From: a virus
Strand: one strand, 5' to 3'
Length of the DNA: 55,682 nt
IMG/VR virus record: IMGVR_UViG_3300036850_000029
Span: 1-55,682 of that record
Shown: positions 25,862 through 54,021 of the stretch, piece by piece
How the letters are laid out: each line of letters begins with the position of its first letter
Numbering within the stretch: position 1 is the first letter of the stretch
Made by a program: the position numbers and the translations under genes
The notes under the pieces: generated by a model
Databases searched by the model: none
Seen by the model: only the letters and a program-made list of their open reading frames with translations
Told to the model about the DNA's origin: nothing

Positions 25862-26098
25862 TCAGGTTACAGGTTCGGCACAAGTCTTGCATTCTTCGGT
25901 ATTTCCAAGCGTGACTCTCACCTTTTGTTTCCTCCACTCAGGATCGTACATATCCTTCAACATCTCATAGTCTTTCCGCTCAAAATGTATCCTGCCGTTA
26001 ATCACAGACCCCACCTTCAACACAGCCGACAAATAACCAATCGGTCGAACCCTCACCTGCTGACCGATCTGGTTAATTGGAAATGAGACGTAACTCAT
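25862..26098 (-). CDS. Small virion-region protein, 78 aa
   Basis: ATGA overlap with the upstream adhesin gene. Beta-rich N-terminus (QQVRVRPIGYLSAVLKVGSV), then a charged helix (KDYEMLKDMYDPEWRKQ) and a Cys pair near the end (CKTC). Possibly a tail accessory protein. Confidence 0.55.
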   Translation of the reverse strand: MSYVSFPINQIGQQVRVRPIGYLSAVLKVGSVINGRIHFERKDYEMLKDMYDPEWRKQKVRVTLGNTEECKTCAEPVT

Positions 26099-28278
26099 GG
26101 CGGGGTCAAAGGCGTTAAGTCAAATGTAGCATTACAAGCACAAGGCCCAGGCGGGAACGGAAGCGAACCGTTTTGCACTGTCAACGCGATTGTATGAGTG
26201 CCAACCCCCGCTGGAATCAGATGTGTGACAATGTCGCCACCACCTGAAATTCCAGTGCATACTCCGGGTGGACCTCCCGTACCTTGGGTTTGTGAAAACT
26301 CAGAAATCCCGTCCACAACCACGCTCACAAAACTTGCCGCAGATGGCCCATCTATGGCACTCGTTGTTGCGACAGCCCACGTCACCACTTCAATCGACAG
26401 CGTGTATTCATTGCAACTGCCGATCAATGTTGTAGACGCTTCGCAGTTGCCGGGTGGAATATCTGCCGCTACATCCAGACTCACCGTTCCGCCTGCTCCA
26501 GATGAACTGCCACAATCCCCCGTCATCGTCCACACCAAGTCTTGAACTGGATGGTTCACGCACGATTGACATTGAGCATCTGCCATTGCTTGAGCGTCGG
26601 CTAAAGCCTGAGAGTCCGCGTCCGCCTGAGAGACACACGACGAATAACTTCCCGCAGGCACGGTGAATGGACCGCCCGTCTCGCCAATGGGGCATTCCAC
26701 CGTTTGTTCGGAATTTAGAAAGGTGCATCCATTGCAGATGTACATCGTGCAATCGTCGTAGTCAGCTCTCGGCACGAAGGTCCTTCCATCCAAGGACGCC
26801 GGTTGTCCAAGACCGTCTCCGGCCAGAGAACCAAGCGCAGTTCGTTTGCAGGTTATCGTATTGGATGAAGCCTGAATGAAGACCACATTGTTTGATGCCG
26901 CCGAGTTGTGGATCACCAGCAAATCTTCATCCTCATTGATGTCCAAACTCGCAAGGGCAGAAGATGCTTCCGAGACGCTCGCAGTGATGGTGTTTGTTGC
27001 GGGATTGATTACTTTTAGTCCCGGCGTAGCTGAATCTCCCGCCAATCCCAACACATACACTTTGTCCTTGGACTCGAAATAGTAGGACAGACAATTAGTG
27101 CTGCTAAACGCATCCCCATTCGAGATCACTATCTCGTCCACCTCGGTCCCGGAAGGATTGTACACTTTGACGCGATATTCGTTGTTCGCTCCGTCAACTA
27201 GATCCGTGAACGCATACCACGCATAAATGCGATCGTTTGTAGTTGTGTGGGCACAGCGCAACCCAAACCCATACGAATCAACCCCGGGAGTTCCAAGAGG
27301 CAGAGCAACCAAAATCGTTACCGTGTCCGTAAAAACATCAATCTGAAGAATATTTCCATCAGACACCCCAGCCTCCTCCGCCGGGATGTAAACCTTGTCA
27401 TTAATTGTATCCAAACAGAAATGCCTTCCGCTAAGATCCGCAGCCGTCACGGCACCCGGTAAAGTTAATGGTCCCGTCACTCCAAACGTTGTCGGATCAA
27501 TCACGAATAAACCTCCAACGGCGTTTACGTAAACCTTGTTCTGCAACGGGACAAAGATCAGGTTTCGAGGGTCCGATCCAATTGCAATCTGAGTCAATTC
27601 AGTCTCCGTGGCGAAATCAATCACACTCACTGTACCCCCCGCGTTATTCGCCACAAACACATAATCCTCGAAACCGCTCCCTGAAATCGGAGCCATGGCA
27701 GCCGCAGATGGAAAGTCCCCAACGATCACCCGACCATCAGGACTCAAACAACCTTCACAGGAAGATGCCACACAACCCGCCGCAGCCAATCCTTGCGCTA
27801 TCGTTAATGCTTCAGCATTTGCATCTGCCTGAGAAATCATGGAAGCCACGGCATTAGCTGGCACAATGAATGGCCCTCCCGCAAAGCCTTCGGGACAATT
27901 CACTGATTGCTCTACGTTGTAGAAGATAATTGGCCCTCCAATCGGAGTCTGTGCATTAGCCGAATCTTGAGCGCACTTGAGCGCCGCCGCATTGGCTTCA
28001 GCTTGTGTCGCCCCCGTGAACGGTCCCTCGCACGGCGCAGGGCCAGGTGGAAATGCCGGGGTCGGTGGATTGTTGGTGGCTGGTTTGTTGGCATTCGCTG
28101 GGATTGTTACCGTAACCGGTGTGCAATTGTAATTTGGAGGACATTGCGACGTGTAACTGACTTCCTGATTGAAAAACACTTCCACGTCGCTGCCTGCTGC
28201 CGAGTAATTCTCAAACGAATCTTCTCCGCAACAGATCAACGCTTTGCAGGCCGGTTCTGTGTTGCAAACAAGTGGCAT
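26095..28278 (-). CDS. Beta-propeller receptor-binding candidate with DUF5977-like repeats, 727 aa
   Basis: Several short units of the form C-P-x-G-x-x-GGPF, then SQADANAEAL and AQ-x-LA-x-A-x-C, lie near residues 83-165 and 520-575. They resemble DUF5977 repeats known from bacterial and phage surface proteins. Between them (~205-500) are repeated VFVANNAGGTVSVID-type blades typical of YVTN/NHL beta-propellers. A beta-sandwich-like C-terminus ends the protein. With the tail genes around it, a host-recognition protein is the best guess. Confidence 0.62.
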   Translation of the reverse strand: MPLVCNTEPACKALICCGEDSFENYSAAGSDVEVFFNQEVSYTSQCPPNYNCTPVTVTIPANANKPATNNPPTPAFPPGPAPCEGPFTGATQAEANAAALKCAQDSANAQTPIGGPIIFYNVEQSVNCPEGFAGGPFIVPANAVASMISQADANAEALTIAQGLAAAGCVASSCEGCLSPDGRVIVGDFPSAAAMAPISGSGFEDYVFVANNAGGTVSVIDFATETELTQIAIGSDPRNLIFVPLQNKVYVNAVGGLFVIDPTTFGVTGPLTLPGAVTAADLSGRHFCLDTINDKVYIPAEEAGVSDGNILQIDVFTDTVTILVALPLGTPGVDSYGFGLRCAHTTTNDRIYAWYAFTDLVDGANNEYRVKVYNPSGTEVDEIVISNGDAFSSTNCLSYYFESKDKVYVLGLAGDSATPGLKVINPATNTITASVSEASSALASLDINEDEDLLVIHNSAASNNVVFIQASSNTITCKRTALGSLAGDGLGQPASLDGRTFVPRADYDDCTMYICNGCTFLNSEQTVECPIGETGGPFTVPAGSYSSCVSQADADSQALADAQAMADAQCQSCVNHPVQDLVWTMTGDCGSSSGAGGTVSLDVAADIPPGNCEASTTLIGSCNEYTLSIEVVTWAVATTSAIDGPSAASFVSVVVDGISEFSQTQGTGGPPGVCTGISGGGDIVTHLIPAGVGTHTIALTVQNGSLPFPPGPCACNATFDLTPLTPP

Positions 28279-28280
28279 GG

Positions 28281-30032
28281 CTACCTTCCATACTGCGCTT
28301 CTTCAAACGGTTCGCAATGGGCAATAAACCCATCAATCCGAGCGTGCCCGGTTATCTCAATCCTGAACTGTGCCTCGAAAAAGTTCCTGAACGGAGTTCC
28401 CGAAATCGGATCACAAACATCTGGCGGCTGTGTCAGGATGAGTCTTGTCCGGTATTGCTCGCGATAATCTTGAAACATGAAACAGCCCTCAAGCGGGTCA
28501 GGATCTTCGCATGCGTTCTTCGGGGCGCATTCATCCCACTCTTGCCAATCCAGCCAGCAAGGGTAATTGTCGGGTCGATATTGAACCTTGATATGAACCG
28601 TGCCAGACAACCGCGAAAGATACAGATCCGCTGTGTCGAGTTTCTTCAGGCTGAATGGATTGTTCCAATCAAATCGAGCCGTTTCAACCGTGCTGACTAT
28701 CCGGTTTACTTCATTGTCAAACCGTCCCTCCATCGTCAACTCCCACAATTCGATCTGATAATCCGAGTTCAGAACAAACGCAAAGCAACGATCTCTGCCG
28801 CCAAAATCGGCTGTCACAAGCTTCAACACATTCAACCCTGTCCATGCTCCGTCCCATGCTGGCGGTAGTTTCTCGCCAATGCTGGAGATAAGATCGTAAT
28901 CGAGAACGGCAAGCGCACGATGCATCACGCCGAAGTTGGTTCGCAACGGGCTGATTGTTCCGATGAACCGATTGTCGAACAAGGTGGCACTACCGAATTC
29001 CAGCAATGCCCGATCATCCCGTTCCATTGCCCGATTCATTTCCTTGCTGATCGGTGTATTTCCCCATGCGAGGAATTCACGCTTGGCCATGAACAACGTT
29101 CGGAATCCGTCCTTGCTTCGATAGAACACGTCGCCGTTCACGTCCACAACACTGTCCTGAGCCGTGCTGCCGAAGTTGTGCATGATGATGCGCTGGAGAG
29201 GTTCAGTCAAAGCAGCCCAATCAGTTCGCAACGGTGGCACACGCACGGAATAAATCGTGTTCCTTGTCATCACCAACAATTCACCCTCGCCAAGAGCCGA
29301 ATCGTTATTGATAGTCTTGTGGACAGACGTGATGTTCCCGGCATTGGATGGCACTGTGAACACGCCGCCACCAGCAAGGAACGTGTTCTCTATGATCTTC
29401 AGAATTGCATCACGCCGATACGGCAGGATGGTTCCGCTTGGACCTCCAACAATATCACCGGCAATGAAGAACCTTCCTTGAGCAATCCAGATCCGGCCCA
29501 TGTAATACTCCATCATCTTCCCTGTCTTCAGTTCATTGGCAGGATTAGCGCGTCGGCTGGTTGTTCCATCGAAGATGATTGGCAACGAAAAGCCGTCTTG
29601 AAGTATCCAATAGTTCTCACCTTGAATTGACCAGTTCGGAATCAGGTTCGGTGGGTTTGGATCACCGGGAATGCTGATATCCTCAACCGAATAATCCGTG
29701 GTGACATTGATCTTGTGCATCACTCCACCAACAACCGCGATCAAAAAGGTGTCGCCGCTGTCTGGATCGTAATAGTCCGCATGTTGAAATCGTCCAGTGA
29801 GCCATGCCGCTTCCAAGTCGGGATCATTCCACACCAGCGTTCGTCGCACCCAGGCAGGCCGAGTCTTGAGTGACCCGCCTCGAAACGTCGTGTTCAGAGC
29901 ATACGATGATTGAGTGCGCTTAAGTCCATTGGGGTTGCGTACGGATTGAATGCCAGGATTCTTGCCGGAATCTATCCCCGCGCTTTGTTCTCGGAATCCG
30001 TCTGAAATACGTTTGAGCGCGCGAACACTCAT
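28281..30032 (-). CDS. Tail hub/tubular or stabilisation protein, 583 aa
   Basis: Mostly beta structure with repeated short blades: WVRRTLVWND, GRIWIAQGRFFIAGD, GDVFYRSKDGFRTLF and RNTIYSVRVP. The order resembles podovirus tail nozzle/tubular B proteins or DNA stabilisation proteins that plug the tail. The C-terminal ~120 residues carry a Cys-rich patch (CAPKNACEDPDPLEGC). It overlaps the membrane protein gene by 4 bp. No enzymatic motif. Confidence 0.6.
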   Translation of the reverse strand: MSVRALKRISDGFREQSAGIDSGKNPGIQSVRNPNGLKRTQSSYALNTTFRGGSLKTRPAWVRRTLVWNDPDLEAAWLTGRFQHADYYDPDSGDTFLIAVVGGVMHKINVTTDYSVEDISIPGDPNPPNLIPNWSIQGENYWILQDGFSLPIIFDGTTSRRANPANELKTGKMMEYYMGRIWIAQGRFFIAGDIVGGPSGTILPYRRDAILKIIENTFLAGGGVFTVPSNAGNITSVHKTINNDSALGEGELLVMTRNTIYSVRVPPLRTDWAALTEPLQRIIMHNFGSTAQDSVVDVNGDVFYRSKDGFRTLFMAKREFLAWGNTPISKEMNRAMERDDRALLEFGSATLFDNRFIGTISPLRTNFGVMHRALAVLDYDLISSIGEKLPPAWDGAWTGLNVLKLVTADFGGRDRCFAFVLNSDYQIELWELTMEGRFDNEVNRIVSTVETARFDWNNPFSLKKLDTADLYLSRLSGTVHIKVQYRPDNYPCWLDWQEWDECAPKNACEDPDPLEGCFMFQDYREQYRTRLILTQPPDVCDPISGTPFRNFFEAQFRIEITGHARIDGFIAHCEPFEEAQYGR

Positions 30033-30316
30033 TTAGCCGCCTTCATGGATTTAATTTCGTGAATCAACTGGTTAAGAACGTCCCGCGTGTTTTCTTTCGG
30101 AAACAAAGTGTCTTTCCCTTGAACTTCCCACCACACAAATACGGCTGCAAACACTCCAGTAGCCCAGATCACCTTATTCTCAAGCTTCTTTACCCGATCG
30201 TCCATATCGGAGAAGCCCTTCCCCATAGCGGCCTCAATCTTGCCCATCCTGTCATCGCCCTGCTTTAAGACAGCAATGATGGATTCATTTACCACTTCCT
30301 GACGATTCTTCTTCAT
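30029..30316 (-). CDS. Small coiled-coil membrane protein, 95 aa
   Basis: Residues ~18-48 are a charged coiled coil (DMDDRVKKLENK). A single membrane segment (~49-64, VIWATGVFAAVFVWWE) follows, then a polar helix. It resembles XhlA-like or holin-associated small proteins. Its start lies inside the receiver-domain gene (32-bp overlap) with no strong ribosome site, so a later start is possible. Confidence 0.55.
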   Translation of the reverse strand: MKKNRQEVVNESIIAVLKQGDDRMGKIEAAMGKGFSDMDDRVKKLENKVIWATGVFAAVFVWWEVQGKDTLFPKENTRDVLNQLIHEIKSMKAAK

Positions 30317-30740
30317 TCAGTTTTTGCAGTTCAAACAAAGCCCGTTTGGCTCTCAATCGGTTGGTGGCGTGATGCCGCTGCCAAGCGTGCTTTAGAATAC
30401 GAGTGAAGCATCGGTCTTTAAGATGCGATTTCAAGACGTAATCTTCCGCCCCAGCGTTGAAGCATCTGGCTTCCAGAACGTCGTCGTCTTCCTTTGTTAG
30501 AACCACAATGGCGCTATCCAAACTCATCGAGAATATGGATCGAATGGTTTCGTCTGGAGAAACTTCAAGGTGCAGATCCAGAAGCGTGATGTCTGGACGC
30601 ATCGTATGCACCATCGGCTGCCCTGCCATCAGGCTGTTGTAAGACGTAACCTTGAACAGCAACCCCACGTAATCGTCCGAGAACCGCTCATTGACGAGCG
30701 TTTTTACGATTGGATCATCATCTATCAGAATGACCGACAA
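30285..30740 (-). CDS. CheY-like receiver domain protein (orphan response regulator), 151 aa
   Basis: Residues 1-120 match the REC fold: acidic pocket IDDDP (D7-D9), phospho-acceptor Asp55 in ITLLDLHL, Thr82 in VVLTKEDD, and Lys104 in AEDYVLKS. The full set of conserved residues suggests a working phosphorylation site. The C-terminal ~30 residues form a charged helix, with no DNA-binding or enzyme output domain. No histidine kinase is encoded here, so phosphate would have to come from the host. It sits in the middle of the virion operon, which is unusual. Confidence 0.8.
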   Translation of the reverse strand: MSVILIDDDPIVKTLVNERFSDDYVGLLFKVTSYNSLMAGQPMVHTMRPDITLLDLHLEVSPDETIRSIFSMSLDSAIVVLTKEDDDVLEARCFNAGAEDYVLKSHLKDRCFTRILKHAWQRHHATNRLRAKRALFELQKLNEEESSGSGK

Positions 30741-30755
30741 TGTGCGTCTCAGACA

Positions 30756-31160
30756 TCATTCCTCGATTATAGGTTCGAGAGCAGCCAGCACCCCGGCAGG
30801 AATGGCGTTCGTCGGACACGAATCAACTCGTTGACCGTCTGGCGTAGTCACCTTATCCGTTCCATCACCAACACGCAACTCTGCCAGCTTCAGCTTGTGC
30901 GGCTCAAACTCAGTCGTGCCGTCGAGCAACGCACCCCATTCCTCCAGATACGCCCTGCCCTCGTCTGAGTCCTGAGCCAGTTGTTTGCTGCCATTGGCGT
31001 GCTTGGCGATCAACTTCTGTTGCGCCGTCTTCAGATCACCGGCTGCCGTACGCACCTTGCGCAGATTCTTGGCGAGTTTCCACGTTGTCACGCCATCAAA
31101 TTTGAACGTGTCCAGAGAGTTCAAGGCTTTGTCCAGTGCGAGCAGGTCCAGGTTTGTCAT
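30756..31160 (-). CDS. Helical virion-region protein, 134 aa
   Basis: Helical N-terminal ~80 residues (ALDKALNSLDTFKFD, then AKNLRKVRTAAGDLKTAQQK) followed by an acidic, strand-like C-terminus. It resembles conserved hypothetical proteins of phage structural regions. The start is preceded by a 19-bp sequence also found before the gene at 36938. Confidence 0.58.
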   Translation of the reverse strand: MTNLDLLALDKALNSLDTFKFDGVTTWKLAKNLRKVRTAAGDLKTAQQKLIAKHANGSKQLAQDSDEGRAYLEEWGALLDGTTEFEPHKLKLAELRVGDGTDKVTTPDGQRVDSCPTNAIPAGVLAALEPIIEE

Positions 31161-31176
31161 AGGTTATGGGTTTGTG
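31158..31176 (-). repeat. 19-bp repeat at a gene start, copy 1
   Basis: cataggttatgggtttgtg on the plus strand is identical at 36936-36954. In each case it spans the start codon (cat) of a minus-strand gene and the 16 bp before it. The flanks differ. It may be a copied regulatory leader or a recombination scar. Confidence 0.7.
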
Positions 31177-31255
31177 TTCTCGAATCGTTCAGACAATAGG
31201 CATGGTAGGGCAGAAGGTCAATCCTCCCACACGTTGTAGTATTATCCCCTGCATG

Positions 31256-31444
31256 TTAAGCCGTCGCAGGGATCTCCCAGTCCAGATACGTTCGTGTCAA
31301 CGTAGTTTTCATGGTGTCCCGGTCCTCCGTGAAGGTGTAGCCTTCAAGGTTTCCATTCGGAAAACGAGTTTCAAGAAACGCTTTGACTTGATTGCAATCA
31401 TCCGTGTTCTGGCATTCGATGATGTATGTTTCCGTGACCTTCAT
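31256..31444 (-). CDS. Small protein, 62 aa
   Basis: A strong AGGAAGGA ribosome site precedes the ATG. It has an alpha/beta-like order: VTETYIIECQ strand, CNQVKAFLETRFP helix, then two strands. Function unknown. It follows the third fibre paralogue by 12 bp. Confidence 0.57.
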   Translation of the reverse strand: MKVTETYIIECQNTDDCNQVKAFLETRFPNGNLEGYTFTEDRDTMKTTLTRTYLDWEIPATA

Positions 31445-31456
31445 AATGTTCCTTCC

Positions 31457-32092
31457 TCAATCTCCCACGGCGAAATATCGCCAGTTAAGGGCCAAGTTGG
31501 TTCCGGCAGAATATTCGACGATTGTCGCATTAGTTTCCGTCACTGAAAAGGAATGCTTATGATGGTACTCAAACGACCTATCATGGGTATGACCTCCTCC
31601 GGCTGGCGTTGTTCCTGAAAACGGATCTAAGTCCACACTATGCACATGAGTGTAAATGTTAGAGCCAAGCGCGACTGCATCCACTCCACCTCCTCCTGAT
31701 ACGGGCGCGGACGACGTAGCCGATGGATGATCGTGATCAATGTTATGGAAATGACCGGACGGGGGAGTTTCTCCGGTGGCGAACTTAGAGGCTCTCACAG
31801 TCACACCGGACGGCTGTCCCGATACGTTTCCGATGGTGGCTTTGTCGAATCGATCTCTCATCACTTTAACGACAGCCTTTCCTGGGGCGAATGCTCCTGT
31901 CGTATCCTGGTTAAGAATGACCTCAATATCGTCGGCTGTCGTACCCGCTTCATCATAAATGGACAGGAATCTCAGGAAGCTGAAGGACGCGGATAGGTCC
32001 ACAAGGAACCCACCCGTGACATAGGAAGCAGGCCCCGTGACGCTTCCAGTCGCGATGATCGGAATTGTAACTGTATCGAGTATGGCTGCCAT
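31457..32092 (-). CDS. His-rich fibre/collar protein, paralogue 3, 211 aa
   Basis: Third of three tandem related proteins. N-terminal ~100 residues: TGPASYVTGGFLVDL, then AVVKVMRDRFD, a beta-sandwich-like domain. The second half carries clusters of HxH: HFHNIDHDH, YTHVHSVDL, HTHDRSFEYHHKHS. Similar HxH clusters bind metal in phage fibre tips such as T4 gp12. Likely a tail surface protein. Confidence 0.68.
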   Translation of the reverse strand: MAAILDTVTIPIIATGSVTGPASYVTGGFLVDLSASFSFLRFLSIYDEAGTTADDIEVILNQDTTGAFAPGKAVVKVMRDRFDKATIGNVSGQPSGVTVRASKFATGETPPSGHFHNIDHDHPSATSSAPVSGGGGVDAVALGSNIYTHVHSVDLDPFSGTTPAGGGHTHDRSFEYHHKHSFSVTETNATIVEYSAGTNLALNWRYFAVGD

Positions 32093-32093
32093 G

Positions 32094-32696
32094 CTATTCG
32101 GTGGCGCGGTAAAAGAAGGTCGCTCCAGAAAGGTTTATTGCTACGGTTTGCGCCGTGGTCCTGTCAGTCTCCGTGTTCGTCGCCGAATGTTGATGCTGGT
32201 AAATGTTGTCAAACGTATGCGTATGAGCTGAACCTGGTCCGGTATTTCCAACGAAGTTGGGAGGATCAAAGGAATGCGTATGTGATTCGATATTCGGTGA
32301 TCCGACAGCATCCAGAGTGGTTCCTCCTCCAGTGAGATTGTTTGCGCCAGAAGTCACGGCTGCATGATTGTGATCCATGTTGTGAGTGTGAGCCGATTCG
32401 TTGTCATATGTTTGTCCGGCTGTAAACTGTTCGGTCACTCCGGCTGGGAGTCCGGCCATTCCTTCGATGCTTAGGAGTGCCTCGTAATATCGTTGGTCCA
32501 TGTTTATGCTTACTTGGCCAGCAGCTGGCGAGTTCCTTGTCCACCGAAACACAGCGGTTGAAAGATTGGCTCCTCGAACGCTCACGAACAACTGGAAATG
32601 GTTTACGGTGGTCAGCCCCGTGGTGATAATAATTGGGGTGGTCTGGTCCAGATAGGCAGGTCCTGTGAACGAATTGGTTTCAATGCGAACACTCAT
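32094..32696 (-). CDS. His-rich fibre/collar protein, paralogue 2, 200 aa
   Basis: The ATG at 32696 overlaps the preceding stop (ATGA). It has the same order as its neighbours: FTGPAYLDQTT, a strand-rich middle, then HTHNMDHNH, SHTHSFDPPNF, HTHTFDNIYQHQH. The next gene starts 1 bp after its stop. The three copies have diverged enough to be separate specialised parts rather than a recent duplication. Confidence 0.7.
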   Translation of the reverse strand: MSVRIETNSFTGPAYLDQTTPIIITTGLTTVNHFQLFVSVRGANLSTAVFRWTRNSPAAGQVSINMDQRYYEALLSIEGMAGLPAGVTEQFTAGQTYDNESAHTHNMDHNHAAVTSGANNLTGGGTTLDAVGSPNIESHTHSFDPPNFVGNTGPGSAHTHTFDNIYQHQHSATNTETDRTTAQTVAINLSGATFFYRATE

Positions 32697-33358
32697 AACT
32701 TCACTCCGGTGGCGCACAGATACCATGTGGTTGCGCTGAGATTGGTAGTGCTTCCGAGTTCTACTAGCGCGAATTTCAGAAAATCATGAATGACATCATG
32801 AGAATGTTGATAAATGGAGTTGTCCCGGTGATAATGGTTTTGGTCAGGAACGCTGGATGTCCCGGTTAAATTGGGAATGTCCAATGTGTGCGTGTGGGAT
32901 GATAGATTAGGACCTGCGGCGTCCAGAAGGACTGATCCCCCTCCATTGTTGTTCACTCCAGAACTGAATGAACCATGATTATGGTCAATCGAGTGGGTGT
33001 GTGACCCCTCTGGACCTGACTCAGCCCCGAGCGCGTCCAGCGTGAGAACCAAGATTGGAACATCGGTTGGGTTTCCTACGGAGACACGATTGTAACGCTT
33101 TCGCACAATTTTCACCTTGGCCTTTCCAGAAGAAGGAGCGTTCAGTGTGATTTCATAAAGCACAGCGGGAAGGTTCGGACCGCGCGACCCTTTCTTGACA
33201 ACAAGCTCCAAGGAATTAAGCGAAGAAAAGGTTTTGCTGAGATCGACGGTGAACCCTCCAGTCGTATAGGACGCCGGACCTGTAAATTCATCAGCGATTG
33301 TGTGCTGATTGAATGTTGCAGCAACTCCACCGCCTCCAAATGGTCCGTAATAAGCCAT
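32693..33358 (-). CDS. His-rich fibre/collar protein, paralogue 1, 221 aa
   Basis: First of the triplet, 1 bp after the repeat-rich fibre gene. FTGPASYTTGGFTVDL at about 25-40 and HTHSIDHNH, SHTHTLDIPNLTG, HYHRDNSIYQHSH in the second half show the shared architecture. The Gly-rich N-terminus (GPFGGGG) differs from the others. Likely part of the adsorption apparatus. Confidence 0.7.
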   Translation of the reverse strand: MAYYGPFGGGGVAATFNQHTIADEFTGPASYTTGGFTVDLSKTFSSLNSLELVVKKGSRGPNLPAVLYEITLNAPSSGKAKVKIVRKRYNRVSVGNPTDVPILVLTLDALGAESGPEGSHTHSIDHNHGSFSSGVNNNGGGSVLLDAAGPNLSSHTHTLDIPNLTGTSSVPDQNHYHRDNSIYQHSHDVIHDFLKFALVELGSTTNLSATTWYLCATGVKL

Positions 33359-33359
33359 G

Positions 33360-35168
33360 CTATGCGTAGTCGATGTTCACAACCAAAGCTGTTGCTGGGG
33401 CTGTCCCGCCTCCCGGCGTCGTCGTGGCTGCAATTGATATGGCCGTTGAAAACTGAATCCCCACGCCAAATGATGTGTCAACTCCCACTTGCGATGTTGC
33501 ATTGGATTGCAACGCCACGCTGCGTGTTGGAACAGTGGTTCCCACGACAACGCTTCCTGAAGCCAAGTCGTAGAAATGCAGGTAAGCCAAAGCCACTCCG
33601 GGGTTGAAGATATTGTAACTCCACACTTTCCCAGCAGCAGCTTTCACAGCAACCGCTGTATTTGTCACGGCTGCATTCCGAAACGGTGTTGCGCCGCCTG
33701 TGGTTCCAACCACAGGAGCCACAGTGGAACCTGAAACATCCACTTTATCCGTTGCAAATACCAAGTTTCGGATGTCCAGATCCGTCGCTGAAACAACCCA
33801 CGGCGATGTTGATTGCGTCACTGCAACAGTGCCGGTGATTGTAGTGGACGTGAGAGATACCACCCAAGGGCTTGTTCCCTGAGTAACGGTGGTTGTTTCC
33901 AGAGCCGTCAATGTGGCCGAATCCAAGGCCACAACAGAACCGCCCACGTCCACCTTATCAGTAGCAAAAACGAGATTTCGTATGTCCAGATCAGTTGCCG
34001 ATACGACCCATGGACTGGTTGATTGAGTCACTGAGACTGTCCCGGTTATCGTAGTTGATGTCAGCGAAACAACCCACGGACTGGTCCCCTGATTTGCCGT
34101 CACCGTTCCGATAACTGGCTGAGTTGCAGGGAAATTGCTTACCGACACAGATGAACCAGAAGCATCAACTTTGTCTGTGGCGAATACCAAGTTCCTGATA
34201 TCCAGATCCGTAGCGGATACCACCCACGGGGAAGTTCCTTGAAGAACGGTAATCGTTTCAAGAGCCGTCAACGTGGCAGCATCCAGAGCCACTACACTTC
34301 CGCTGGCATCGACTTTATCCGTGGCAAACGCGAGATTTCTGATGTCCAAATCCGTCGCCTGAACTGTCAGCGTGATCGACGAAACGATATTCACGTCTTG
34401 GGTGCCAGAGGGAATAGTTGTCACCGTCCCCGATACTGTCCAAGGCGACGTTCCTTGCAGAACAGTGATCGTCTCTAATGCCGCCAATGTTGCAACGTCG
34501 AGTGCCACTATGCTCCCGCTCGTATCCACCTTGTCTGTTGCAAAGGATAGGTTACGAATGTCGAAATCGGTTGCGGCAACAGTGAGTGTGATCGAACTGA
34601 CAATGTTTACATCCTGAGTACCTGACGGTGTAAACGTTCCTGAGACAACCCAAGGTGAAGTGCCCTGTAGGACCGTGATGGTTTCGAGGGCGGTAAGTGT
34701 GGCTGCGTCCAAAGCCACGACTGAGCCCGACACATCGACCTGATCTGTCGCAAAGTCCAAGTCCCAAGTCCTGCCCACGCTCCAGACGCCGCTTTGCGTC
34801 ACTGCAACTGTAGCAGGAAAGTTGCTGACACTGACAACCCATGGGGAAGTTCCTTGGTTAACCGTCACTGTCCCATCAACCGTCCATGGGTTTGTGCCTT
34901 GTAGAACCGTAATTGTTTCAAGGGCAGCGAGGGTAGCGGCATCGAGGGCAATCACTGATCCGCTGGCGTCAACTTGGTCAGTGGCAAAATCAAGTGTCCA
35001 TGTCCTCCCAAGATCACCTGATACAACGAGAGGAACTGAACTGACAATGTTAACGTCTGTGAGTCCGACTGGAGGAATGCCGCTGGAAATACCTTCGGCA
35101 ATGAGCGCGAGAAGCTGCCTGTCACTCAGGCATGTGTAGCAACCGGCTGGTTGAGGAGTGTCAGCCAC
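33360..35168 (-). CDS. Repeat-rich tail fibre protein, 602 aa
   Basis: The N-terminus has CYTCLSDRQLLALIAEG, similar to the CFxCLPxxQ motif in the small proteins at 50305-50815. Most of the chain (~50-490) repeats two units: LETITVLQGTSPWVV and ATDLDIRNLVFATDKVD-x-SGS. About eight copies of the first are seen. Such beta repeats form extended fibre shafts. The C-terminal ~110 residues look like a globular beta domain. DNA repeats here are coding and could recombine. Confidence 0.68.
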   Translation of the reverse strand: MADTPQPAGCYTCLSDRQLLALIAEGISSGIPPVGLTDVNIVSSVPLVVSGDLGRTWTLDFATDQVDASGSVIALDAATLAALETITVLQGTNPWTVDGTVTVNQGTSPWVVSVSNFPATVAVTQSGVWSVGRTWDLDFATDQVDVSGSVVALDAATLTALETITVLQGTSPWVVSGTFTPSGTQDVNIVSSITLTVAATDFDIRNLSFATDKVDTSGSIVALDVATLAALETITVLQGTSPWTVSGTVTTIPSGTQDVNIVSSITLTVQATDLDIRNLAFATDKVDASGSVVALDAATLTALETITVLQGTSPWVVSATDLDIRNLVFATDKVDASGSSVSVSNFPATQPVIGTVTANQGTSPWVVSLTSTTITGTVSVTQSTSPWVVSATDLDIRNLVFATDKVDVGGSVVALDSATLTALETTTVTQGTSPWVVSLTSTTITGTVAVTQSTSPWVVSATDLDIRNLVFATDKVDVSGSTVAPVVGTTGGATPFRNAAVTNTAVAVKAAAGKVWSYNIFNPGVALAYLHFYDLASGSVVVGTTVPTRSVALQSNATSQVGVDTSFGVGIQFSTAISIAATTTPGGGTAPATALVVNIDYA

Positions 35169-35182
35169 ATTAAATCACAACG

Positions 35183-35377
35183 TTAAAACTGTTTCATTCT
35201 CAGCGTCATCTGTCGCCTTGTTTTGCAGTCTTCGATCGTGACTCTATGAATCAGCCCGTAATCCCTGAATGTGTAGATAAAACGGGACCGATCATCAATC
35301 TGCATCTCGCTTCCGGTAATTGAACGTTGCCACGATCTGAGTTTCTTTTCATTTTCTCCATTAATCGCAAAGTCCAT
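35183..35377 (-). CDS. Small protein, 64 aa
   Basis: Start and previous stop overlap (TAATG). The protein is strand-rich and basic (SRFIYTFRDYGLIHRVTIED). It may be a virion accessory part. No family recognised. Confidence 0.57.
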   Translation of the reverse strand: MDFAINGENEKKLRSWQRSITGSEMQIDDRSRFIYTFRDYGLIHRVTIEDCKTRRQMTLRMKQF

Positions 35378-36123
35378 TATATGACAGCGTTAGCGTTCAG
35401 TTTCACCCATGCACCAGCCGCATTGAAAACACCACGAAACGCCACATCCGTTCCACCTATAACCGATGTGTAGGTGAACAAGAGCGTTCCTCCAGCCACG
35501 TCGTTATGTACTTCCACGGTTGGGTTGGTTGAGGCAGGCATGAGAAACAGTATGTTGATGATGTCGCCCTCGTCTGCGTCTGTCAGCTTGAGCGAATATG
35601 TCGCCGTGTAAGGTCCAGCCCCGGCATCAACCGTGGCAATCAGAGAATGTTCAGTTGCCGTGGCACCAATCGTCACGTCCACATTACCAGCCGCACCAAT
35701 CGTTGATTCAGCGTAGGTGTTCGCTCCACCGGCTGCCCCTGTCGTTCCTGTATCACCCTTGAGTCCAGCCGCAGATACTTCCGCTCCCGAAGGAATCACC
35801 ACAGCCGGTGCCGCATTGCCTGTGTAACCAAGGTTCTTCAGCACAACCTCTGTATCCAATGGCTTGCTGATGACCTCGTAATAACCGCCTGTCTCAATGA
35901 AGACAATCTGACCGGGAGAAATCCAAACGGAACTATCAACTTCAGCCGTTACATTGGCATTCGCCGCAGGCTGAGTGAATGACGCTGAGAGATGAGTGAA
36001 AGCGTTTTCACCATCTGCACCGTCTGCACCGTCAATGCCATTCGGTCCCGGCACCTGAACCGTCGGTGTGTCTTCGCACGTCGTCGAGCAACAGACTTCG
36101 TTTGATGTTGAGGCTTCAGCCAT
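35377..36123 (-). CDS. Collagen-like fibre protein, 248 aa
   Basis: The ATG at 36123 has AAGGAAG at good spacing. A short collagen-like stretch (GPNGIDGADGADGENA, about 28-43) and a second GLKGDTGTTGAAGG near 125-140 flank a beta domain. The C-terminal ~110 residues look like a jelly-roll tip (VDVTIGATATEHSLIATVD). Cys residues sit near the N-terminus. Likely a trimeric fibre. Confidence 0.67.
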   Translation of the reverse strand: MAEASTSNEVCCSTTCEDTPTVQVPGPNGIDGADGADGENAFTHLSASFTQPAANANVTAEVDSSVWISPGQIVFIETGGYYEVISKPLDTEVVLKNLGYTGNAAPAVVIPSGAEVSAAGLKGDTGTTGAAGGANTYAESTIGAAGNVDVTIGATATEHSLIATVDAGAGPYTATYSLKLTDADEGDIINILFLMPASTNPTVEVHNDVAGGTLLFTYTSVIGGTDVAFRGVFNAAGAWVKLNANAVI

Positions 36124-36550
36124 GTGCTTCCTTCCAAACATGAGCCAGCTTGTCTGACTCGATCTTTTCCCTCATCGCTTGGCCGATCTCCATTGCGTTC
36201 TTTCCCGGCATCGCGTGAGCCACATCCATGAACATCGCCATACAGCCGAGCTTTATTCTGTCCATGTCTTGTGCGCGACCGGTGTCAGATAACGCCTCTC
36301 GAATCTTGCCGAACGTCTGAATGTCATCCCAACCATGCTCCATTGCGCTTGCGAAATAGTGGGGGATTGAAACGACACAGGACCGTTTCTCCGCTTCATC
36401 CATTGTGTTCGTCAATGGCAGCCCGTGTGTATCTGCCATCTGGAAAGCCCCACCAAGCACCATCCTGCCATCAGCCGTGAAACCACACAGACACAATGGC
36501 CCACTCAGTGGCACGGACAAGCTTGGGTGAGATGTATAGGCTTCAGCCAT
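36116..36550 (-). CDS. Hypothetical protein of the virion operon, 144 aa
   Basis: It begins MAEAYTSHPSLSVPLSGPLCLC and has a helical core (FASAMEHGWDDIQTFGKIREAL, split by a short loop, and RIKLGCMAMFMDVAHAM). It overlaps the collagen-like gene by 8 bp. It could be an assembly factor for fibres. No family recognised. Confidence 0.55.
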   Translation of the reverse strand: MAEAYTSHPSLSVPLSGPLCLCGFTADGRMVLGGAFQMADTHGLPLTNTMDEAEKRSCVVSIPHYFASAMEHGWDDIQTFGKIREALSDTGRAQDMDRIKLGCMAMFMDVAHAMPGKNAMEIGQAMREKIESDKLAHVWKEAHG

Positions 36551-36551
36551 G

Positions 36552-36938
36552 TTACGCGACTTTCACCGTACGGCGAGTGTACTTACGTTTCACTCTTGGT
36601 TGTTCGATTGCCACCGGGGGGATTGATCGTGCAGTCGGAACTGGCGGGATTGGATTAAGTTTGGGCCTCGTCACCACCAAATGCGGAATCTCACCCAACA
36701 CATTCCCGTTCTTCGTATCCACAACTTCCCTGATCGTTGGCGCTCGAAACAGCTTATCAATATACTGCCCCACATAAGGCAACACTTCCTTGGCAACGAT
36801 ATATTCGATCCCGTCAAACTTGCCTCGCTGATAATCAGCGAAAATCTTTCCTTGATGCTGGACGACAGCCTTGGCGTCCATGACAGAGTTGATACGCAAT
36901 TCGAGATAACGTTGAGCAGGTTTTGTTGGGGCAGGCAT
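36552..36938 (-). CDS. Hypothetical protein, 128 aa
   Basis: Helical N-terminus (QRYLELRINSVMDAKAVVQ), a central LPYVGQYIDKLFRAP, then a Pro-rich linker and a very basic end (RVKRKYTRRTVKVA). The basic tail suggests contact with DNA or another virion part. Start preceded by the second copy of the 19-bp repeat. Confidence 0.57.
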   Translation of the reverse strand: MPAPTKPAQRYLELRINSVMDAKAVVQHQGKIFADYQRGKFDGIEYIVAKEVLPYVGQYIDKLFRAPTIREVVDTKNGNVLGEIPHLVVTRPKLNPIPPVPTARSIPPVAIEQPRVKRKYTRRTVKVA

Positions 36939-36954
36939 AGGTTATGGGTTTGTG
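36936..36954 (-). repeat. 19-bp repeat at a gene start, copy 2
   Basis: Identical to 31158-31176. Here it also covers the last codons and stop (TAA) of the gene at 36942-37115, so this copy is partly coding. That makes this location the more likely source. Confidence 0.7.
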
Positions 36955-37115
36955 GGTTGTTCGCCCGGTTTCAATAATGGAAATGGGAAAAGATTTGGGT
37001 CCATCGGATCTGGGCGGTCATTAATGCTGAAAGTCCCACCATTCTTTTCCACCATCTTTCTGATGTGTTCCAGAACTTCTGGCGGTTTCAAGGGTTCTGG
37101 GAGTTCAGCATTCAT
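36942..37115 (-). CDS. Small Pro-rich protein, 57 aa
   Basis: The ATG at 37115 is chosen as the first with a protein-like product: a helix (EVLEHIRKMVEKNGG) between Pro-rich ends. It is the first gene of the minus-strand virion operon, divergent from the terminase gene with 42 bp between them. Function unknown. Confidence 0.5.
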   Translation of the reverse strand: MNAELPEPLKPPEVLEHIRKMVEKNGGTFSINDRPDPMDPNLFPFPLLKPGEQPTNP

Positions 37116-37117
37116 GG

Positions 37118-37146
37118 TTGTCCGAAACCTTGATACGCCATATCTT
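37118..37146 (+). promoter_or_regulatory. Candidate promoter for the terminase operon
   Basis: TTGTCC (37118-37123) and TATCTT (37141-37146) are separated by exactly 17 bp in the 42-bp gap between divergent genes. Transcription would begin about 5 bp before the terminase ATG, giving a nearly leaderless message. No Shine-Dalgarno is seen there. Confidence 0.35.
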
Positions 37147-37157
37147 CCAGTCACGCA

Positions 37158-38957
37158 ATGGAAAATGCCAACCAGCCAAAGCCGGACCTTAAACCCGGCC
37201 AGATTTTCAAATACGGCACCATCTGGCAGGCTCAGGATGATCTGGATATCGAGATGGCCGCATTTAGGGCAGGCGGTAAATGGAAGAATTCAAAGGGCGA
37301 AGATTGCGGAAACGGTTTGTTCTTTCATGCCAAGGAATTTCAGAAGCTCCTTTGGCCACACAAGAAATGGCACAAATGGAATGACCTTCTCCTGTCCAAA
37401 TACTGCGAGTACAGAATTGTTGGCGTCATGGGACCGGCTTCAAGCACCAAAACTCACGAAGCTTCTGCTTGGGCGCTCATTAATTATTTTGCTTACTCGG
37501 ATGAAATAACCATCCTCGTTTCCTCAACAGACAGCCGAGGCTTGGAACTCCGTGTCTGGGGTGAAATCAAGAAATACTGGTCTTTGGCCAAGGAACGATA
37601 CAGCAACCTTCCCGGGCACATCATGGACAGCCGAACCATGATTACCACCAATGGCCGGGAAATGGATGTTCGCGATTTCCGAAACGGCATTGTTGGCATT
37701 CCGTGCGTCGTCAATCATACCTATGTTGGAATCGGAAAATATGCCGGGATTAAGAACAAAAGAGTCATCCTGATAGGTGACGAATTACAGTTCATGGCAG
37801 GATCATTCCTTGAGGCGATTGCCAACTTGGACAGTAACCAGAGCTTTCAATGCATTGGCATGGGCAATCCAAAGGACCAGAACGACGCCCTTGGAAAGCT
37901 ATGTGAGCCATCCGATAAGGACGGAGGCTGGGAAGGCAGAGACATTTCTCCCAAGACAAAGACGTGGCGCACACGGTTTATGGATGGCATCTGCATTCAG
38001 CTTTACGGCACCGATTCTCCAAACTTTGATGTGCCAGAAGGACAACCCGCACCTTTCCCGTTCATCATAACCCGCAAGAAAGTTCAGAACGTCATCGAGT
38101 TTTACGGCAAGGATTCGATGCAATATTGGATGCAATGCATCGGGGACATGCCCGATGAATCCATTGGAAAACGTGTTCTGACTCGCGCTTTCTGCGTTAA
38201 ATTCCACGCCCTTGAAGAAGCTGTTTGGGACATCGAACCATCTCTCAAGATAGTAGGCTTGGACGCTGGTTACGGTGGCGACCGTTGCGTTCTCACGGAA
38301 CTGCACATTGGCCGAGACGTTAAAGGCAGACAGATCATGGCCTTTGCCGGTAAACCCGTGATTGTGCCTGTCTCTGTTGGTCGAGGAAACGATTTGCCGG
38401 AGGATCAGATAGCACGGTTTGTGATGAACTACTGCAATGACAGAGGGATTAAGCCGGAAAATGTCTTCTTCGATTCAACCGGACGCGGCACATTGGGAAC
38501 TTCATTCGCTCGCCTATGGTCCGCACAGGTTCAACCCGTCGAATTTGGTGGAGTCGCTTCGGACAGGCCGGTATCCGCTCAGATCCGAACACCGTGCAAA
38601 GATCATTACAGCAAATTTGTCACTGAACTTTGGTTCTCAGTCCGTCGCATAATTGAGTCAGATCAATTTCGTCAGCTACCCGAAGAAGTCATGGCTGAAG
38701 GCTGTATGCGGGAATACAAAATCGTCTCAAGAAATAGGGAGGAGATCGAGACTAAGGACGAAATGAAGTTGAGAATGGGAAGATCTCCCGACCTTTTCGA
38801 CTCGCTTTGTTGCGGGGTGGAAGGCGCCCGTCAACGTGGCTTTCAGATAGCTGGTTTAGGCGAACAACGCAAGGGTTCTGACCAGAAATGGCTCCGTGAT
38901 TTATTCGCCAAATCTCAAAGGTTGAATAAACGTGAGCAATTGATTTATACTCCCTGA
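37158..38957 (+). CDS. terL: Terminase large subunit
   Basis: 599 aa. The ATPase domain has a deviant Walker A at 92-99 (GPASSTKT, Ser/Thr in place of the usual Gly before Lys), Walker B VILIGDE at 203-209, and a CIGMGNP coupling motif at 232-238. The nuclease domain has acidic residues in VGLDAGYGG (Asp369), VFFDSTGRG (Asp439) and SPDLFDS (Asp545/Asp548). This is the motor that cuts and pumps DNA into heads through the portal. Length and order are normal. It opens the plus-strand head operon. Confidence 0.92.
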   Translation: MENANQPKPDLKPGQIFKYGTIWQAQDDLDIEMAAFRAGGKWKNSKGEDCGNGLFFHAKEFQKLLWPHKKWHKWNDLLLSKYCEYRIVGVMGPASSTKTHEASAWALINYFAYSDEITILVSSTDSRGLELRVWGEIKKYWSLAKERYSNLPGHIMDSRTMITTNGREMDVRDFRNGIVGIPCVVNHTYVGIGKYAGIKNKRVILIGDELQFMAGSFLEAIANLDSNQSFQCIGMGNPKDQNDALGKLCEPSDKDGGWEGRDISPKTKTWRTRFMDGICIQLYGTDSPNFDVPEGQPAPFPFIITRKKVQNVIEFYGKDSMQYWMQCIGDMPDESIGKRVLTRAFCVKFHALEEAVWDIEPSLKIVGLDAGYGGDRCVLTELHIGRDVKGRQIMAFAGKPVIVPVSVGRGNDLPEDQIARFVMNYCNDRGIKPENVFFDSTGRGTLGTSFARLWSAQVQPVEFGGVASDRPVSAQIRTPCKDHYSKFVTELWFSVRRIIESDQFRQLPEEVMAEGCMREYKIVSRNREEIETKDEMKLRMGRSPDLFDSLCCGVEGARQRGFQIAGLGEQRKGSDQKWLRDLFAKSQRLNKREQLIYTP

Positions 38958-38960
38958 GTC

Positions 38961-39677
38961 ATGCCTCTTAAGCTTAGAAAAGGTTTTCCTCCCGGTGGCT
39001 GGCAGTTCTTCCAACCCGAAACCGGCTGGAGCGCACCATTCCCATTGGCAGATGGCTTTGACAAGACAGTCAGCCGCATCATAAACCATCGTCTGGCCAA
39101 TCCTCGATTCCCTTTTGCCACCGATTACAACACGGTTGCCGATCAACTCGACAAATTCACCTGTCACCGGCTGAAATTCGATCCACATTACTGCGACGGG
39201 GTTGAAGCCGATAAAAAAAAAGACGTTCCACGCCGTATTCCACAAAACAGGCCATTAATCTCAGCAAGTTTGCAAACGCTCCAAAGAAAGTTTGTCGAAG
39301 CTGTAACAAACGTTAAACGTTCGGCAGTCGGCGCTCGGATTCTGAACGATTGGATCGGTCACGGCAGTCATCCTGTCGCGCAACCAATCGCTGAACGACG
39401 CGGCGCAACATGCGCGGCTTGTCCGCTCAATTCCAAGGAAGCAGATTGGATGTTTGGCATACCAAAAGCCGTGGCAGTTGCCATTCATGAACATCGCCGT
39501 GTGAAATCTCAGTTAGCCTTGAAAGTCAGCATGGAAGATCAGCTTGGAACATGCACCGCTTGCGGTTGCCAGAATGCACTGGCAGTGTGGGTTCCTATTC
39601 AGCACATTCGCAAGCTGACACCCAAGGATATTGCAGCCAAACTGGACAAGAATTGCTGGAAACTCAATGAACCATAA
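38961..39677 (+). CDS. Cys-motif protein next to terminase, 238 aa
   Basis: Starts 3 bp after the terminase stop. The N-terminus is GGWQFFQPETGW, followed by a helical middle. The C-terminal part has RGATCAACPLN, GTCTACGCQN and NCWK (around residues 150, 195 and 232), a set of about six Cys that could bind zinc or an iron-sulphur cluster. The family occurs in other phages near packaging genes but has no known function as far as I can tell. Confidence 0.6.
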   Translation: MPLKLRKGFPPGGWQFFQPETGWSAPFPLADGFDKTVSRIINHRLANPRFPFATDYNTVADQLDKFTCHRLKFDPHYCDGVEADKKKDVPRRIPQNRPLISASLQTLQRKFVEAVTNVKRSAVGARILNDWIGHGSHPVAQPIAERRGATCAACPLNSKEADWMFGIPKAVAVAIHEHRRVKSQLALKVSMEDQLGTCTACGCQNALAVWVPIQHIRKLTPKDIAAKLDKNCWKLNEP

Positions 39678-39682
39678 AGACT

Positions 39683-39874
39683 ATGAAATTCACAATGGCA
39701 GTATTATTTAGCGCACTAGCATTCGTGGCACTGTTTATTTTTGTGATAATCCCATTGATGGATTCATGGAACGCAAGGGCTGACGTAAAGGCGTTTTGCA
39801 CCGTATCTATAGTGCTTTTTCTGGCGTTCATGATGGGACACTTCGGACACAAAAAGTCAGGTAATTGGAAATGA
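39683..39874 (+). CDS. Small two-helix membrane protein, 63 aa
   Basis: Two hydrophobic helices (about 5-25 and 40-54) with a short loop and a basic C-terminus (GHKKSGNWK). Such proteins include holins, but this one lies among head genes. It is coupled by ATGA to the glycosyltransferase-like gene, so it might anchor or support that enzyme. Function unknown. Confidence 0.57.
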   Translation: MKFTMAVLFSALAFVALFIFVIIPLMDSWNARADVKAFCTVSIVLFLAFMMGHFGHKKSGNWK

Positions 39875-40662
39875 ACTTCCTCTGCATCATTCCGTTTCAC
39901 AAAGGCGATGCCCAGCTTGCTGAGGAGTTGTTGCGCTGGATAATTGAGCTTGGAGGTTGTCGCAAGCACCGTTGTCTGCTCGTTGCCGATGCCAGTGTGC
40001 ATCTGAACATGACAGATGCGCTTACCACGCTCGCAAGGGAAGCTTTCGGAAAGGCAACCATCGCTTACGTTGACGATATCAAGACTTCATGGCCGAAGGC
40101 GTCTAATCAGATGTTCAAACACGCCGCTATTCACGCTGCCAAATGGGAACATTGCCCGTTCTTCTGGTGCGAACCGGATTGCATCCCGCTCAGATCGTCC
40201 TGGTTGGATGAAATCGCCAATGAATACGCCCGATGCAACAAGCCGTTCATGGGCAAACTCGTTTCCACCGATCAACACGGGATGCCCGCCCTTCACATGA
40301 ACGGAAATGCCGTGTATCCGCATGATGTTGGCCTCCGTTTATCCACTGTTTTGAACGGCGATCAGGCTTGGGACATTGCTTCGGCTGATATCACTGTGAA
40401 AGATGCTTTCAACACGCCGTTGATCCATCATTTCTGGGGAAGGTTCGATTTGCCGCCGCATTTCGAGGACTACCGCACACGCCATAGCGCCGAGAACACG
40501 CTCACGTTGCAGAATATCCCAAAGAAAGCTGTCCTTTTTCACCGTTGCAAAGATGGGTCACTCATAAGAGTGTTGCGCCAACGCTTCAATAACGACGCTT
40601 TCACACCCTTAATCCATAACGCCGCTGGCAAGCAGAAGACAATTGCCGTGAATACAGATTGA
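39871..40662 (+). CDS. Glycosyltransferase-like protein (GT-A type), 263 aa
   Basis: The ATG at 39871 overlaps the previous stop. An in-frame TTG at 39865 is not needed. It begins NFLCIIPFHKGD, a GT-A-like first strand, and has FFWCEPDCIPLRSSWLDEI (about 95-113), where EPD replaces the usual DxD metal site. NPxLIHHFW-like parts follow near 185. It probably moves a sugar onto an acceptor, perhaps a virion protein, DNA or host glycan. Acceptor unknown. Confidence 0.58.
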   Translation: MNFLCIIPFHKGDAQLAEELLRWIIELGGCRKHRCLLVADASVHLNMTDALTTLAREAFGKATIAYVDDIKTSWPKASNQMFKHAAIHAAKWEHCPFFWCEPDCIPLRSSWLDEIANEYARCNKPFMGKLVSTDQHGMPALHMNGNAVYPHDVGLRLSTVLNGDQAWDIASADITVKDAFNTPLIHHFWGRFDLPPHFEDYRTRHSAENTLTLQNIPKKAVLFHRCKDGSLIRVLRQRFNNDAFTPLIHNAAGKQKTIAVNTD

Positions 40663-42917: not shown

Positions 42918-43186
42918 CCCTCTCCCCTAAATCTCGCTTCCTGAAGACGACCGAATCAAAAGCTCACCTTGATCTTGTGACTCAGGATTATTTCCAGACC
43001 GCCTTGACCGTTGCCTTGGCTGAGATGGAGATGAACATGCCGCCTCCCGGCAGCCCCACGAACGGCTGGGATAACGCCAGTCAGATGCAAGGCGCAAAAC
43101 GTTTCATTGAAGTTCTACTCAATTTGGCCGAACCTCCCGCACCGCAGAAGAAACCTGTCAGCGAAACCCTTAAACCCATAAACTGA
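42914..43186 (+). CDS. Small head-region protein, 90 aa
   Basis: ATGA overlap with the portal gene. One helix (HLDLVTQDYFQTALTVALAEMEM) and a second after a Pro/Gly linker (ASQMQGAKRFIEVLLNLA). It is found between portal and scaffold, so a head assembly role is likely. No family name known. Confidence 0.6.
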   Translation: MTLSPKSRFLKTTESKAHLDLVTQDYFQTALTVALAEMEMNMPPPGSPTNGWDNASQMQGAKRFIEVLLNLAEPPAPQKKPVSETLKPIN

Positions 43187-43187
43187 T

Positions 43188-44450
43188 ATGCCAGCCGCAC
43201 CCGCCGCTCCTCCGACTGAATCGGCCCCTGCCGCTCCCGCTCCAGCGGCCAAGCCAGATTCAGGGCCATTTGTCCCTCCACCACGGCCACCGGCTTCCGA
43301 ACGGTTCGCTGATGAATTTGCTGAGTTTGATCGTGTGGCTGCCGGTGATACTGCCAAGCCCGATCCCAAGCCCACGGAAAAGAAGGCTGAGAAACCTGCC
43401 AAGCCAGTTGAGAAACCCGCTGAGAAAGTTGAGAAGGCGGTTGAGAAATCAGAGGAGAAGGTTGCTGAACCGGTCGATCCAAAAGAACCGAATGTTGATC
43501 CGGCTGAAGCTGTAGAGACGCCTGACAAGAAATTCCAAACCGCCAGGGAGGTTCGGGAATGGGGCCAGTCGTTGCACCGTGAGAACGTCGCGTTGAAGAA
43601 GCAGATGGAAGAACTCAAGAACGCCAAGCCCAAGGACGATCCAACCAAAACGTATCAGGAAAAGCTCGCTGAGATGGAAAAGCGCCAGCAGCAGCTTCAG
43701 GAAGAACTGAAGTTCACCAATTACGAGCGCAGCGACGAGTACAAGCAACAATACATGGTGCCACTGCACAAGGCGTATCAGGCTGCATTCAACGATCTGG
43801 CCGAGATCACTGTTGAGGCTGATGACGGCACGACTCGTAAAGCAACCGAAGACGATTTCCGAGTTGTCACCCAACTGCCTCTTGGATTGGCCAAGGCCAA
43901 GGCTCGCGAGTTGTTCGGTGATCTGGCCGAAGATGTCATGGCACATCGTCGCCGTGTCATCGAACTGAACGAGGCACGCAAGGAAGCTCTCGAAACCTAC
44001 AAGACCAAGGGCGTTGAACGAGAACAACAGACCGCTGCACAACGCGAAGCTGCGCGTAAAGCGCGTCAGGAACTATTCGAGGCGTCCATCAAGGAAGCTC
44101 CTGAGAAGTTCCCTGAATACTTCGCGCCAATCGAAGGGGACGATGAAGGCAATGCACTTCTGGAATCTGGAAACAAACTCGCTGACATGGCGTTTAAAGG
44201 CGCTCAGGGCCTATCTGAAGAAGCCCTTGTCAAAGCTCATGCAGAGGTTCGCCTTCGCGCAGGCGCGTTCAGCCGTGAAGTCCTAAAGAACAAACGGCTT
44301 AAGGAACGAGTTGCTGCTCTTGAAGAAGAACTGAAAGCGTTCAAGGCTTCAGAGCCGACTGGAGGCGACACAGGCCGTGACGAGACTGCCCGTGAACTGT
44401 CCGTTGAAGAAGAAATCGACGCCATAGCCGCAGGAAGGAAAGCTGCCTGA
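43188..44450 (+). CDS. Scaffolding protein, 420 aa
   Basis: Highly charged and helical. The N-terminal ~110 residues are Pro/Ala/Lys/Glu-rich with repeats (EKPAKPVEKPAEKVEKAVEK). Residues ~120-180 are a coiled coil (LHRENVALKKQMEELKN). The C-terminal ~90 are a charged helix. These are normal features of internal scaffolds that guide capsid assembly and are later removed. The major capsid candidate is not next to it, but on the opposite strand 7 kb away. Confidence 0.68.
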   Translation: MPAAPAAPPTESAPAAPAPAAKPDSGPFVPPPRPPASERFADEFAEFDRVAAGDTAKPDPKPTEKKAEKPAKPVEKPAEKVEKAVEKSEEKVAEPVDPKEPNVDPAEAVETPDKKFQTAREVREWGQSLHRENVALKKQMEELKNAKPKDDPTKTYQEKLAEMEKRQQQLQEELKFTNYERSDEYKQQYMVPLHKAYQAAFNDLAEITVEADDGTTRKATEDDFRVVTQLPLGLAKAKARELFGDLAEDVMAHRRRVIELNEARKEALETYKTKGVEREQQTAAQREAARKARQELFEASIKEAPEKFPEYFAPIEGDDEGNALLESGNKLADMAFKGAQGLSEEALVKAHAEVRLRAGAFSREVLKNKRLKERVAALEEELKAFKASEPTGGDTGRDETARELSVEEEIDAIAAGRKAA

Positions 44451-44453
44451 TGC

Positions 44454-45884: not shown

Positions 45885-45888
45885 TCCC

Positions 45889-53908: not shown

Positions 53909-54021
53909 TGTAATAAAACGACCCCAGCATCCAATGGCGTGATCGTCGGGCTTTGAAAACCCTAGAAACTCAGATGCCGGGGCCAAGATTTATTGTGTTC
54001 GATCACGCGCCTCAAATCCTA

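Follow-up and report, generated by a model that had tools for sequence, protein, structure and literature searches.

What is the task of a bacterial signalling receiver which stands alone in the late operon of a virus? The question is raised by the open reading frame at positions 30285-30740 (minus strand) of the window, as we call the whole stretch of DNA analysed, a complete IMG/VR record of 55,682 bases. The reading frame codes for 151 aa from a TTG start. Its product matches the Pfam family PF00072 (Response_reg) over residues 3-111 with E = 6.6e-10 (39.6 bits, the cut-off being 30.2; positions 1-106 of the 111 of the profile) as well as PHROG 731 (8.4e-14). The first-pass annotation had proposed an orphan receiver with the active-site residues D7-D9, D55, T82 and K104, and we find all of them at exactly these positions; Y101 occupies the aromatic switch position. 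Since a serine takes the place of the usual proline after K104 and the loop after D55 is without the common MPxxxG motif, the receiver is divergent, yet judged by its residues it is complete. An output domain is absent: PF00072 is the only family above the Pfam cut-off, with no C-terminal DNA-binding domain of the PhoB/OmpR or NarL type, and the chain stops at 151 aa. The protein is a receiver alone with nothing added, that is, a single-domain response regulator. As already stated in the first-pass annotation no kinase gene was seen in the phage, and no chemotaxis genes were recognised among the window proteins scanned.

The predicted structure agrees with this assignment. An AlphaFold2 model built on an alignment of 12 receivers (mean pLDDT 78.7) adopts the CheY fold that had been claimed from the sequence, and 352 PDB entries match the model at E <= 0.001, WspR being the first. 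The last helix of the model, alpha5, is extended and spans residues 104-148 like a stalk, predicted with moderate confidence (block means of pLDDT 66-77 across residues 111-150). Nothing but this helix follows the receiver, which bears out the missing output domain. The closest solved structures, 3i5a (1e-8) and 3bre (8e-8), both of WspR, are matched via receiver and stalk. The closest viral fold is gp30 of the Alteromonas phage V22, which is matched over its full length with a TM score of 0.82.

The receiver gene closes an adhesion block within the late operon. On the late minus strand (30029-35168) a fibre-like protein is followed by three smaller ones, after which come a protein of 134 aa, the receiver and finally a protein of 95 aa. 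The fibre-like repeat protein (33360-35168) and the three smaller proteins make up the adhesion-type block proper (31457-35168, minus strand). The earlier statement that the gene lies between tail genes is thus only partly right, the immediate neighbours being different ones. Directly upstream is the 134-aa protein (30756-31160, minus strand), whose family is not recognised and which is without transmembrane (TM) segment. On the other side follows the 95-aa protein (30029-30316, minus strand), small and of coiled-coil type, whose single TM segment is weak, and the start of its gene overlaps the 3′ end of the receiver gene by 32 nt. The start codon of the receiver, TTG, is uncertain. At the end of the 134-aa gene there is an overlapping ATGA (30756-30759), but its ATG is not in the reading frame of the receiver. 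Translation thus begins at the TTG, unless the contig contains an indel at this point. The candidate endolysin, a transglycosylase-SLT-like protein of 147 aa with a hydrophobic N-terminal segment (16718-17161, minus strand), is located 13 kb from the receiver, and its match to PF01464 (2.9e-4) is slightly under the cut-off. We assign the terminase to 37158-38957 by weak matches to annotated terminases and call the protein at 40659-42917 portal-like from its size and position.

Some further features of the window may be mentioned. Near the portal-like gene, among the head genes, there are glycosyltransferase-like and methyltransferase-like proteins, recognised by eye (39865-40662, 44454-45272, 45889-46503 and 46493-47977). 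Homologues are kept in the relative L005; a scan of three of the proteins against PHROG gave no match. The protein at 52964-53986 has a PAPS-reductase domain (PF01507, 1.9e-8) and shows 38% identity to part of Phage C72C1 that bears the annotation PAPS reductase. The 727-aa protein at 26095-28278 combines DUF5977 (2.9e-14) with a YNCE-like propeller. The terminase-side and head proteins (35377-47977) are almost without PHROG matches, despite relatives in IMG/VR, and it looks as if the virus belongs to a little-described group.

Is the receiver a regular component of this virus group? The first-pass annotation had advised to search for the family in related phages. When viral contigs were searched with the window receiver itself, no direct relatives were found. 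A search with an alignment of the portal-like protein returned seven loci related to the window virus, four of them long (45-59 kb; G001, G004, G006 and G007, the last two nearly identical over the stretch read). None of the four long relatives has a match to PF00072, the gene being absent as a whole rather than present with Asp55 lost; stand-alone receivers turned up in eight phage lineages other than this one. The homologues of 28281-30032 and 35377-36141 abut directly in G001. There the fibre/exit block has another location, with an XhlA-like protein present and the receiver absent, and the adhesion-type block (31457-35168) occurs at a different place in L005. From this junction, the displaced block and the lack of a receiver in the relatives we conclude that the block has moved between relatives and that, on the sequence evidence, the receiver is an accessory gene. 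As it is missing from relatives of the virus, it is not essential to lysis. Searching with the fibre-like protein (33360-35168) yielded 76 loci, among which L005 is the only one with further proteins in common with the window; the others match just this repetitive protein and were rejected as relatives. Searches with the 583-aa neighbour and with the protein at 51117-52658 gave no match, and from bacterial genomes the alignment of the portal-like protein retrieved no relative.

The eight other lineages were collected by sequence searches blind to gene context: V22/L097, A5/L103, R9Y1/L091-L094, R8W together with H4/4, PB15, L098-L101, L131 and L136. In six of the eight a gene recognisable as that of a holin, XhlA, spanin or endolysin lies at most two genes from the receiver. 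The neighbour is an Rz-like spanin in V22 (7e-6) and in A5 the protein gp12, homologous to the V22 spanin, with the endolysin three genes further; in R9Y1 it is a GH108 lysozyme (5e-24). R8W and H4/4 have a class II holin by annotation two genes upstream of the receiver. PB15 offers a hemolysin/XhlA-type protein (1.8e-16), an M15 peptidase (2.7e-13) and a holin with three TM segments (3e-16), and L131 a cell-wall hydrolase (6.5e-18) and an Rz spanin (4.8e-11). The receivers of L098-L101 are accompanied by an XhlA-like protein and a two-TM protein, neither of which matches a family. In L136, finally, no lysis gene adjoins the receiver, a protein of 165 aa (5878-6375) with a lipoprotein-like gene on one side and GIY-YIG and portal-like genes on the other. 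A random gene would be within two genes of a lysis gene in about one case in ten, a rough estimate rather than a measurement, so that six of eight is unlikely to be due to chance. The pattern was noticed post hoc, after looking, and the lineages are not fully independent because five of them infect Alteromonas. Adjacency may also arise without function, since accessory genes in general tend to be placed in the stretch from fibre to lysis genes.

A number of candidates were not counted. Komp_PAO1_1 carries a longer NarL-type regulator at the end of a Mu-like phage. The phoP-like gene of Bhz63 is followed by a sensor-like gene; it is a full-length regulator or cellular DNA and was left out, as were L095 (OmpR-like), L102 (hybrid kinase), L133, L134 and L137 for being full-length regulators or cellular DNA. 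The match in OQ658365 lies beyond the integrase and outside the prophage. Many of the records named as Listeria, Staphylococcus or Acinetobacter phages or as coming from faeces resemble bacterial contigs, and these were likewise excluded from the count. With the phage-type alignment 80 loci were found in bacterial genomes, and 4 of the 44 examined were stand-alone. The best of these four, on the contig L138 (PBFM01000045.1), which is filed as Candidatus Neomarinimicrobiota, has its receiver in the same setting as the R9Y1-type phage record L091, and both contigs measure 42,718; L138 is probably a phage contig inside a MAG.

In the 95-aa protein of the window, next to the receiver, the charged N-terminal half resembles a coiled coil, and there is a single weak TM segment. 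It is under every family cut-off (best Pfam match DUF7201, 0.0049; no PHROG match), and in a pairwise test it matches the XhlA-like 137-aa protein of L005 over 20 residues (6e-5). With the single exception of L136, the other lineages (seven of eight) have next to the receiver a small protein with one TM segment and a coiled-coil-like part, the coiled coils being assigned by eye; in V22 and A5 the TM segment of this protein is likewise weak. The TM/coiled-coil genes before the receiver in the Foturvirus H4/4 and in R9Y1 are homologous (2e-10), and thus the pair of receiver and partner is common to a podovirus and a siphovirus. The partner in L131 gave no such match. The XhlA-like proteins of L098 and L005 are also homologous (2e-12). 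According to the charge bias the coil of the partners with an N-terminal TM segment is cytoplasmic, opposite to the Rz controls; for the 95-aa protein of the window the count is ambiguous (4 versus 3 basic residues).

The window protein is a phage single-domain response regulator in a late-operon block for adhesion and exit. As to its function we tentatively favour a phospho-switch which influences cell exit by touching the membrane protein beside it, a reading to which we would give somewhat less than an even chance. D55 would be phosphorylated by histidine kinases of the host or by acetyl phosphate; as no phage kinase was seen, any model requires a phosphate donor from the host. Phosphorylation could then alter the alpha4-beta5-alpha5 face together with the stalk, the stalk might touch the coiled coil which the neighbouring membrane protein would expose to the cytoplasm, and this contact could tune the exit machinery to the state of the host. 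The action would be direct, as that of EpsW on a membrane enzyme in Myxococcus, and would not involve DNA binding. A wider version, which we regard as doubtful, is that a receiver phosphorylated by the host has been recruited several times, by phages not related to each other, as control of their exit machinery, its stalk docking on the coiled coil of a small membrane protein and tuning the triggering of the holin. Phage lysis would then be under two-component control exerted on proteins, with the activity of host kinases or the level of acetyl phosphate as signal. Several points speak against the contact model. The partner in the window has a weak TM segment and is under the family cut-offs, with the likely endolysin 13 kb off, and the receiver of L136 adjoins a portal-like gene without a neighbouring lysis gene. 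To these come the absence of the receiver from relatives of the virus and the reservations stated above on the lysis pattern.

A close rival, nearly as plausible in our view, is that the receiver is a moron or auxiliary gene which interferes with two-component or chemotaxis signalling of the host, either as a phosphate sink or as a mimic of a host regulator; the proximity to lysis genes would then merely reflect where accessory genes land. An intact receiver in a phage where no kinase was seen fits this explanation, as does a gene that is absent from the relatives and sits in a mobile block, which is expected of an accessory gene. In the literature the receivers of V22 and A5 are counted among the class II auxiliary genes, a phosphate sink is known in DifD, and the L136 receiver is not beside lysis genes. 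However, from interference with the host one would expect neither the recurrent pairing with a coiled-coil/TM protein nor the homology of the partners between unrelated phages, and the late operon, judged from gene position, comes late for a reprogramming of the host.

Rather improbable, but still to be weighed, is a regulator of another late step than lysis, such as superinfection exclusion or control of the envelope or of polysaccharides, again exerted via the neighbouring membrane protein. The 95-aa partner is only a putative holin under the family cut-offs, EpsW acts on a membrane enzyme of polysaccharide synthesis, and the block includes adhesion-type genes. Against this, where a function can be recognised for the neighbours in the other lineages, it is in most cases lysis.

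The first-pass annotation had also considered a repurposed structural part, and the gene indeed lies in the virion operon. Nevertheless a virion component which has kept the receiver fold without its chemistry appears very unlikely to us. D8, D50, D55 and K104 are invariant across the aligned receivers, a set that takes in one domain of the full-length regulator L095, and position 82 is always S or T. Five sampled pairs within lineages gave dN/dS values of 0.04-0.20, indicative of purifying selection, and in two of them dS is near 1.5 so that the estimate is rough. Structure alone does not need the fixation of D, D, S/T and K. As far as sequences can tell, this conservation argues for a working phospho-chemistry, and thus supports the phospho-competent receiver proposed earlier. 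A chance reading frame or a newly captured, decaying host gene, for which the TTG start, a ribosome site that is not clear and the lack of a relative in this virus group could be cited, is hardly credible in view of the Pfam match, the fold, the full catalytic set and an open frame of 151 codons packed tightly among co-oriented neighbours.

Phage receivers have so far been filed singly, as auxiliary genes or as PhoB, and no paper joining phage lysis and response regulators was found in the open-licence literature, outside of which most subscription journals lie. Viewed as a set they are short and have an intact catalytic site, selection on them is purifying where this is measurable, and most are adjacent to exit genes. 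The window receiver may let its phage sense the state of the host when leaving the cell. If lysis is indeed controlled in this way, phages would read the two-component signalling of the host to tune their release, which is testable in the cultured Alteromonas phages. If not, the set still is a clean panel for studying how viruses tap host phospho-signalling.

How does the window receiver compare with known systems? Stand-alone phage receivers are already known from Alteromonas phages, and the window adds one in a different virus group. V22 gp30 (149 aa) and A5 gp11 (147 aa) are described as CheY-like and classed by the authors as class II auxiliary genes (PMC7289586, PMC10579305). Like the window protein they are single receivers of about 150 aa in a fibre/host-recognition module before spanin- and holin-type genes, and V22 gp30 even has the same overlap of 32 nt with the next gene. 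The phages are unrelated, however, and the receivers are 23% identical over 123 residues; moreover, V22 and A5 have the coiled-coil/TM gene upstream and a spanin downstream, whereas in the window a protein resembling an XhlA-like one is downstream. R8W gp48 (4501-4962 of L088) resembles the window receiver in standing alone (153 aa) and in lying in a late-operon block that includes a holin, but comes after the annotated class II holin and a TM/coiled-coil protein. It bears the annotation PhoB and has been treated as a DNA-binding regulator (PMC8228385). With 153 aa the protein is too short for a DNA-binding domain, so this label looks wrong, and it does not transfer to the window receiver. WspR (3i5a, 3bre) shares the receiver fold and a long helix continuing alpha5, with an alignment that covers the full model, but continues into a GGDEF output domain where the window chain stops after the helix. 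The cellular EpsW, DifD and CheY likewise consist of a receiver only with intact phospho-acceptor. EpsW of Myxococcus, a single-domain regulator, acts by direct contact on a membrane enzyme of polysaccharide synthesis (PMC12802240). These proteins work with cognate kinase systems in the cell, whereas the window receiver is borne by a virus and has no kinase of its own.
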